Assembly: GCA_022396035.1 (NCBI GenBank)
Contig: JAIOXO010000016.1
Location: 1-38,933 of the forward strand
Reading direction: 5' to 3'
Length of the DNA: 38,933 nt
From: Actinomycetes bacterium
GTDB lineage: Bacteria; Actinomycetota; Humimicrobiia; Humimicrobiales; Humimicrobiaceae
The notes below the pieces were generated by a model. It was not told the origin of the DNA. It did not search any database and worked only from the letters and a program-made list of their open reading frames with translations. Below are positions 3,741 to 5,027 of this stretch, piece after piece (the stretch's first letter is position 1; each line of letters opens with the position of its first letter). A program made the position numbers and the translations under genes.

Positions 3741-3801
3741 GTCCATCACTCTCCAAAATATTATGCTAACTATAAACAAATAAAAAGGAGAAGTGATGGA
3801 C
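3741..3801 (+). promoter_or_regulatory. Inverted repeat covering the transposase RBS and start
   Basis: GTCCATCACTCTCC (3741-3754) is complementary, with one bulged base, to GGAGAAGTGATGGAC (3787-3801), which contains both the Shine-Dalgarno and the ATG at 3796. A transcript reading in from upstream would fold this into a hairpin that hides the start site. This is a known way for insertion sequences to damp transposase translation from outside promoters. The role is inferred from the pairing. Confidence 0.5.
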
Positions 3802-4026
3802 AATTACAACAATAATGCTAAAGAGAAAAAGTTTCAAGATGCACTGGTAGATGAGAAGGATATTTTAAGAAATATTATTCAAGACTTTTGCCAGAACCTA
3901 CTGGAAGAAGAGATGGAAGACCACCTAGGCGCTAAAAAATATGAAAGGACTGACGTGCGGCAAGGACATAGAAATGGCAAACAGCTATGGATATTGCTAA
4001 TGATATGGATCATTTTAAGATATTAA
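3796..4026 (+). pseudogene. Truncated IS256 (Mutator-type) transposase
   Basis: About 76 residues remain of a protein normally near 400. The N-terminal region is recognisable: IIQDFCQNLLEEEMEDHLGAK followed by YERTD and HRNGK, the IS256-family signature preceding the zinc-binding and DDE core. After HRNGK the sequence departs from the family and stops at 4024-4026, so the DDE catalytic domain is missing. The ATG at 3796 has aaaggag five bases upstream; a GTG one codon earlier is less likely. It follows the broken mazF, so this insertion is the likely cause of that break. No matching far end of the element was found. Confidence 0.7.
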
Positions 4027-4160: not shown

Positions 4161-4225
4161 AACACTTAAAGGAAAGGGTATTGCTTCAATGAATCCTCCC
4201 TAATTACCGGTGGGGTAACCAGAAA

Positions 4226-4391
4226 TAAAAAGGCCCCAACGAATCTTTTGCCTTAGCTTTCACACGTTAGGCTAATCAACACATTGGGACCCAGAGAGTA
4301 AAAGTTGTGCGGTAAATCTTTAAAAGATGCTAATTACTATTTACTTTCTTTCGTCTATAAATTTCATTGCCTTTTAAAGCTACCTAACTTT
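4226..4391 (-). ncRNA. Candidate small structured RNA, unit 1
   Basis: On the minus strand a promoter (4397-4424) is followed by about 165 bases with long self-complementarity: CTTTAAAAG (4318-4326) pairs with CTTTTAAAG (4371-4379), GGTA (4311-4314) with TACC (4381-4384), and AGTAAAAGTT (4297-4306) with AACTTTTACT (4386-4395). It ends in a conserved hairpin (4232-4290) followed by a T-rich run. A diverged second copy lies at 4709-4877; the shared parts are the terminal hairpin, including its loop motif AAAAGATTCG, and an internal ACGAAAG...GTAAA stretch. No known RNA family was recognised. Part of the outermost stem overlaps the predicted start site, so the 5' end is uncertain. Confidence 0.45.
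4232..4290 (-). terminator. Terminator-like conserved hairpin of unit 1
   Basis: The outer stem CCCAA/TTGGG (4235-4239 with 4284-4288) and inner stem GCCT/AGGC (4250-4253 with 4269-4272) are followed, on the minus strand, by a T-rich run (plus A-tract 4223-4231). Unit 2 keeps the same stems with base changes on both sides (CCCCAG/CTGGGG), which supports selection for structure. Confidence 0.5.
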
Positions 4392-4654
4392 TACTTTCTA
4401 TAATCATCATAGCAGACCTGTCAAGGGGTAGAATAGATTATAAGTTGTTTAGTGAATCACTGGCCGGAGTTATAGTAGTCAGGGAAGGGCAGGAGCAAAA
4501 ACTTGAAAACTTATTTAAGGGATACAACATAAAAATTACAGAAGTGGGCAATACTACCGATGATTGGAGCTTTACTGCTTATATAAACGGCAAGCCTATT
4601 CTAAATATTTCAAATGAGAAATTAGCACGAGCCTATCTTAGGGATTATAAATAA
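4388..4654 (+). pseudogene. Gene fragment resembling the PurL C-terminus
   Basis: The open frame runs from just after a stop at 4385-4387 to the TAA at 4652-4654. It has no good start codon (a TTG lies at 4445) and no ribosome binding site. From LFSESLAGVIVV to the end it resembles the C-terminal end of phosphoribosylformylglycinamidine synthase: an LFSES-G-hhV strand, a Glu/Lys helix, an IKITEVGNTTDDW stretch and a final helix with KLARAYL. About 80 of more than 700 residues remain, so it would be non-functional. It sits between the two RNA-like repeats, so it may have been caught in a duplication or insertion. The identification is by eye and moderate at best. Confidence 0.4.
4397..4424 (-). 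promoter_or_regulatory. Minus-strand promoter of RNA unit 1
   Basis: The -35 box is a perfect TTGACA (complement of 4419-4424) and the -10 box reads TATAGA (complement of 4397-4402), with a 16-base spacer. It points into unit 1. Confidence 0.5.
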
Positions 4655-4708
4655 CAAAGGCCCTAATTAAAGCTGGGTTTTTAAGTTTAATAAGAGTTTT
4701 GGTGCATC

Positions 4709-4877
4709 AAAAAACCCCAGCGAATCTTTTGCCTTTGCTTTAACACTTTAGGCTACTTAATACCCTGGGGTCTTTCCTTGAAACTTTTCTAAGGATCTCT
4801 CCGAAAGTAACTCATTTTTACGGCCTTTCGTTTGTAAAAAAAACTACTATCAAAGGTTGCCTTCTTTTTCAAGGCAT
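4709..4877 (-). ncRNA. Candidate small structured RNA, unit 2
   Basis: This is a second, diverged copy of the unit at 4226-4391 in the same orientation. From the predicted 5' end it contains four hairpins: TGCCTT/AAGGCA (4858-4863 with 4871-4876), CGAAAG/CTTTCG (4802-4807 with 4825-4830), TCCTT/AAGGA (4775-4779 with 4791-4795), and a terminal CCCCAG/CTGGGG stem (4715-4720 with 4765-4770) that encloses a conserved GCCT/AGGC stem. Six T residues follow on the minus strand. The length (about 168 bases), promoter and terminator match a stand-alone small RNA gene. The function is unknown, and it is not a tRNA, tmRNA or SRP RNA that I can recognise. Confidence 0.5.
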
Positions 4878-4881
4878 GTTA

Positions 4882-4911
4882 AATATACCTCAAGTGTAAG
4901 GTACTTGTCAA
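4882..4911 (-). promoter_or_regulatory. Minus-strand promoter of RNA unit 2
   Basis: The -35 box TTGACA (complement of 4906-4911) and -10 box TATATT (complement of 4882-4887) are separated by 18 bases, and transcription would start near 4877. The TGTCAAG core is shared with the unit 1 promoter. Confidence 0.55.
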
Positions 4912-4938
4912 GAGGAAAATCACCAGTGTCATCTAAGT

Positions 4939-4986
4939 TTTAAAAGTGCACACTTATATTAGGATTTAAAATTTAAAAGTGCACAC
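4939..4986. repeat. Two 15-bp direct repeats containing GTGCAC
   Basis: The sequence tttaaaagtgcacac occurs at 4939-4953 and 4972-4986, 33 bases apart. Paired subterminal repeats of this type resemble the ends of IS21-like elements. The second copy lies immediately before a TATAAT (4994-4999) and a short open frame. A transposon-end origin is inference. Confidence 0.4.
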
Positions 4987-5027
4987 CTCAGGCTATAATC
5001 AGACCAAAAACAGAAAGGTCAGAGGCT

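Follow-up and report, generated by a model that had tools for sequence, protein, structure and literature searches.

Several kinds of structured bacterial RNA are relevant to the locus described here. 6S RNA, a standalone RNA about 185 nt long, targets a protein in trans and is multicopy in some species, and the protein-titrating small RNAs of the CsrB/RsmZ type occur as redundant standalone copies carrying a GGA-containing motif. The c-di-GMP-I riboswitch (GEMM, RF01051) has two arms joined via a GNRA tetraloop and its receptor, and the sequence CCUAAG/UAUGG is the 11-nt receptor of GAAA tetraloops. For the OLE, ROOL and GOLLD RNAs, cryo-EM gives A-minor-rich homo-oligomers composed of RNA only (PMC12286853).

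The window, a stretch of 38,933 nucleotides from an Actinomycetes bacterium, carries two units on the minus strand between 4226 and 4911, each made up of a promoter, an RNA 167-170 nt long and a G+C-rich hairpin with T residues after it. On comparative sequence grounds, these units are genes for an undescribed structured small RNA of about 170 bases with no Rfam match. The initial annotation had described a tandem pair with TTGACA promoters, spacers of 16 and 18 bases and terminators; both units are present with these features and its outer coordinates, 4911 and 4226, are correct, but the pair belongs to a far larger family, of which the covariance model places five copies in this genome (both window units, C4:55177-55346, C7:52294-52464 and C13:177-343). 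The features of the two units are as follows.

4882 to 4911, minus strand: unit 1 promoter, TTGACA at 4911-4906, spacer of 18, TATATT at 4887-4882 (from the sequence).
4707 to 4873, minus strand: unit 1 RNA, predicted, about 167-170 nt (covariance model R1, 136.9 bits, E 5e-22; model R2, 124.4 bits).
4826 to 4829, minus strand: GAAA tetraloop capping arm 1 of unit 1 (from conservation of GAAA over dereplicated copies).
4732 to 4752, minus strand: putative tetraloop receptor of the 11-nt type in unit 1, CCTAAA at 4752-4747 and AAAGG at 4736-4732, within the terminator hairpin.
4709 to 4771, minus strand: arm 2 and intrinsic terminator of unit 1, stem ACCCCAG/CTGGGG, T run at 4714-4709 (from the sequence).
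4397 to 4424, minus strand: unit 2 promoter, TTGACA at 4424-4419, spacer of 16, TATAGA at 4402-4397 (from the sequence).
4226 to 4395, minus strand: unit 2 RNA, predicted, a divergent subtype (model R1, 124.2 bits).
4349 to 4352, minus strand: GAAA tetraloop of unit 2 (from the sequence).
4251 to 4271, minus strand: putative tetraloop receptor of unit 2, CCTAAC at 4271-4266 and TAAGG at 4255-4251 (from the sequence).
4226 to 4292, minus strand: arm 2 and terminator of unit 2, stem GGGTCCCAA/TTGGGGCC, T run at 4231-4226 (from the sequence and fold).

When the two units are aligned, GCCT/AGGC and AAAAGATTCG are kept and the outer stem has changed on both sides, as had been noticed from the window alone. 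Unit 2 is atypical in that the GAAA loop, receptor and terminator are retained and the AGGYAAC/GAGAAAAG internal loop is gone; its -10 element ends about 2 bases upstream of the modelled 5' end of the RNA, and it may be a specialised or decaying copy. A 69-codon open reading frame with no Pfam match lies between the units on the opposite strand (4445-4654, plus), and a fragment of a Mutator-type (IS256-like) transposase (Pfam PF00872) lies downstream of unit 2 (3793-4026, plus).

Comparison with Rfam 15 returned no family above its gathering threshold for the window or the copies, and permissive thresholds were also empty apart from weak matches to eukaryotic snoRNA and lncRNA families, which we attribute to chance. 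6S RNA (RF00013), with which the initial annotation had suggested a comparison, matched neither the window nor the copies, and the window's genome has a separate 6S gene at C2:114018-114201 (91.5 bits). Of 35 host-family genomes, 34 gave matches to the RNA in covariance-model searches, at 1-10 copies each and about 100 in total; the sole negative genome is 79% complete. Contigs end at or beside RNA copies in L123, L124, L142, L166, L200 and L207, so copy numbers from draft genomes may be underestimates. All blastn matches to unit 1, in many genomes, fell within the host's family, and model R1, built from 18 copies, gave no match at E <= 0.001 outside that family among 397 genomes sampled from the phylum. 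A broader model, R3, added a single relative from another family of the same class (genome G035, locus L212; E 9e-8), a short form with promoter, terminator and core loop and a shorter arm 1, which is the only credible match among about 360 phylum genomes outside the host family. Further weak matches in G066 and G152 did not recur in the family of G066 and were treated as chance terminator-like matches rather than as a wider superfamily. Other families of the phylum gave weak matches at L214 547-610, L215 509-717 and L216 456-552, mostly to the terminator arm with its GAUG..GAGUAG / AAAGGUAUC-like internal loop, and these found no counterpart in the relatives of G066. Scanning about 85,000 species genomes for a pattern yielded 31 stretches; those confirmed by the model were all metagenome-assembled and labelled Actinomycetota, Actinobacteria, Actinomycetes, plain 'bacterium' or Candidatus Hydromicrobium, a genus assigned to Candidatus Humimicrobiia.

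The proposal that the units encode a functional small RNA of unknown family is supported by homologues with compensatory changes. The first fold, from a plain MAFFT alignment, had double changes in 20 of 34 pairs. Over 95 copies and a 54-pair structure, 46 of the 54 base pairs show compensatory changes and 87% of cells are paired. The covariation score is 0.379, compared with 0.203 +/- 0.004 for shuffled alignments (none of 500 shuffles reaches the observed value), in an alignment that was fitted to the structure and is hence biased towards it, although the margin is large. Sliding the pairing partners by 1-3 columns lowers the score to 0.05-0.11. The predicted structure has two arms. Arm 1 runs from P1 (CUUAGAAC/GUUCUAAG) through an asymmetric conserved loop (AGGYAAC and CCURAGAAAAG) and P2-P3 to P4 with its C-GAAA-G cap. 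In arm 2, the terminator stem is followed by an internal loop, by CCUAAR...ANGG and by a small variable hairpin at the apex. Helix 7, in this arm with the terminator, is 93.9% paired over the 95 sequences, and in 68 of 71 copies CCCC and CCTAA are spaced by 18 nt. This dominance of base-pair covariation leaves hardly any room for a small protein-coding gene, an idea that would make a ribosome-binding site of the GGAGG that 56 of 86 copies have close to their 5' ends: a start codon follows 5-14 nt downstream in only five of these 56, and the open reading frames span 3-17 codons.

The initial annotation had pointed to the conserved terminator loop as unusual, and rightly. By motif match, this loop is one strand of an 11-nt-type GAAA-tetraloop receptor (CCUAAR/ANGG), and the likely reason for its conservation is that the receptor sits inside the terminator hairpin. 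The receptor consensus fits nearly all of 81 dereplicated copies, with the exact CCUAAG/UAUGG form in 13. Across the 95 copies its CC/GG pairs covary, for example to UC/GA (UCUAAG with UAUGA), and the UAA and A remain constant. The variable receptor base corresponds to the flipped-out base of the known structure; a replacement of this base and a CCUAAAG form like the one seen here have both been examined as receptor variants (PMC11381326). A GAAA tetraloop caps arm 1 in 80 of the 81 copies, and the loop stays fixed on a P4 stem that takes 69 different sequences among 77 copies. From the motif and its conservation, together with the rigid spacing and the fixed loop on a variable stem, we infer intramolecular docking, and the RNA is probably clamped into a compact shape by the GAAA loop-receptor contact. 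Rough, hand-made helix counts permit such docking provided that the AGGYAAC/GAGAAAAG loop lets arm 1 fold back. The G035 relative has no recognisable receptor, and the clamp is therefore not universal.

Of 86 copies, 81 have upstream of them a sigma70-type promoter with a score of 9 or more out of 12, compared with 15% of shuffled upstream regions, and the 5' halves of the five promoter-less copies appear degenerate. A T run ends 84 of the 86. With its own promoter and intrinsic terminator, the RNA is predicted to be transcribed from a standalone small-RNA gene. We regard it as such a gene and not as a leader, because the downstream genes face either way and because promoter and RNA remain conserved between copies whose flanks can no longer be aligned. 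The alternative is a cis-acting attenuator or riboswitch, in which a ligand would stabilise or open the terminator arm and thereby control the downstream gene. The location of the receptor in the terminator would suit this mechanism, as would the first of two ancient loci, where the RNA lies upstream of ilvE on the same strand. However, several ilvE genes have a promoter of their own past the RNA terminator (TTGCAA-N17-TANAAT), and at the second ancient locus the RNA is divergent from tyrA-aroA, with the downstream genes opposed to it. The dispersed copies are near random in orientation (28 downstream genes co-directional, 24 opposed). The genes downstream of the RNA are unrelated to each other, and we noticed no conserved antiterminator pairing as an alternative. 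A general cis riboswitch would have a consistently co-directional downstream gene, which this family lacks, with a possible exception at loci with a small RRM-domain gene. Four copies precede such a gene, and there its leader begins about 120 nt after the RNA terminator without a promoter of its own, unlike elsewhere, where the RRM leader has one; some copies may therefore act in cis. As an account of the family as a whole, control in cis seems unlikely to us. The c-di-GMP-I riboswitch specifically gave no match, and the near-random orientation of the downstream genes also speaks against it.

Small RRM-domain genes occur in 39 of 40 genomes of the class, and they have a long conserved leader of the form CUCUUUGUUUGAUAGUAUUUUAAUUAAGAG ... 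GUUACCUCUC ... GGAGGUAA (L219, L220, L221, L224-L226, L230 and L234). The UACCUC in this leader could mask the ribosome-binding site; no Rfam match was found at the three loci scanned (L219, L226 and L234), and the leader may be of the cold-shock type. An obligate partnership between the RNA and the RRM protein was rejected, as RRM genes are also found in genomes lacking the RNA and few copies are adjacent to one. The RRM leaders of several genomes also contain GUUACCUC, complementary to the GGAGG-like core, which would fit a regulator acting by base pairing of a single-stranded seed with mRNAs or with the 3' end of 16S rRNA. The frequency of GGAGG noted above would also agree with this, but the core AGG is mostly paired in the consensus structure (helix 2), GGAGG is missing from many copies, the cores are degenerate in the RRM-adjacent copies, and the other conserved loop bases, rich in A, appear to have a structural role. 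We consider base pairing to be marginally less probable still than control in cis.

The genomic dispersal of the copies raises a further alternative, a selfish or mobile promoter-RNA-terminator cassette of about 222 bp. Copy number ranges from 1 to 10, and several related pairs lie in different contexts and share a stretch of about 220 bp, which extends from roughly -48 to +2 relative to the RNA, with nothing in common beyond. Unit 2 belongs to such a block (4221-4442, 222 bp), with 90% identity to a non-syntenic locus in another genome (L126 in G002) and dissimilar flanks. Set against this, inspection of the copy ends by eye revealed neither terminal inverted repeats nor target-site duplications, no linked transposase was seen at the copy boundaries, the copies differ in their neighbours, and the RNA was not found in phage, plasmid or viral collections, the four viral pattern matches having failed the covariance model. 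Moreover, the promoter spacers of related copies drift and the hexamers are kept, which points to selection on the transcription unit, and two loci are fixed across many genera. A mobile cassette is thus an improbable explanation, clearly more so than either control in cis or base pairing. Nor do the units fit the ends of an insertion sequence, a case that the initial annotation had named as refuting its proposal: the IS-like repeats at about 4935-4990 lie outside the units, and matches to these repeats are separate from RNA copies. These are two TGTGCACTTTTAAA repeats resembling IS21-family ends, just upstream of unit 1; similar ends are found upstream of an RNA copy in L158 and in unrelated places (L032, L036, L037 and L039). 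Additional copies of the RNA in two genomes (L195, L199, L185 and L189; G033 and G021) adjoin a Gp49-like (HigB-type) toxin gene and/or its HTH partner.

We slightly favor, as a whole, the reading that each unit is a self-contained gene for a trans-acting structured RNA of about 170 nt, docked by its loop-receptor contact and presenting loops to a partner. Its comparative support comprises the promoter and terminator unit, the covarying helices of both arms, the near-invariant GAAA and the putative 11-nt-type receptor in arm 2. The RNA would fold compactly after the terminator hairpin forms, with arm 1 bending back at the AGGYAAC/CCURAGAAAAG loop so that its GAAA loop docks into the receptor of arm 2. 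The folded RNA may then present purine-rich internal loops to a protein or small ligand, and a protein might be titrated or scaffolded as by 6S-like or CsrB-like RNAs, with copy number setting the dose; presentation and titration are the weakest steps. That the RNA acts in trans by binding a protein or ligand is our best guess, a judgement from its anatomy. In a bolder version, the terminator hairpin doubles as the receptor arm, with the consequence that transcription release and tertiary docking would coincide in one event and the RNA would become functional only after termination. The docked form, as a monomer or as swapped dimers, would then be a type of sensor or scaffold not previously described in bacteria, a speculative extension that we think doubtful.

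Ribozymes and riboswitches aside, a multicopy structured RNA that occurs in nearly every genome of a bacterial family and has a textbook tertiary-contact motif in its terminator is unusual. Its length of 170 nt puts chemical probing and structural work within reach, and its fold and partner are therefore directly testable even though the hosts are uncultured. Compared with 6S RNA, it is alike in its standalone status, similar length and several copies per genome, but has two arms with a tetraloop and receptor where 6S has one long stem with a central bubble. It has redundant standalone copies and a GGA motif in common with CsrB/RsmZ, although its GGA is single and partly paired and there are no repeated GGA hairpin loops. 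The small two-armed plan resembles that of the c-di-GMP-I riboswitch, whereas core and length differ and the new RNA is not a leader. OLE, ROOL and GOLLD are likewise structured non-coding RNAs of poorly understood function, but they are several-fold longer and unrelated, and the new RNA, at 170 nt, is dispersed and multicopy. Finally, the receptor type and GAAA loop are the same as in the contacts of the group I intron P4-P6 domain, group II introns and the engineered miniTTR, but here the receptor lies within the intrinsic terminator hairpin of a small free-standing RNA.
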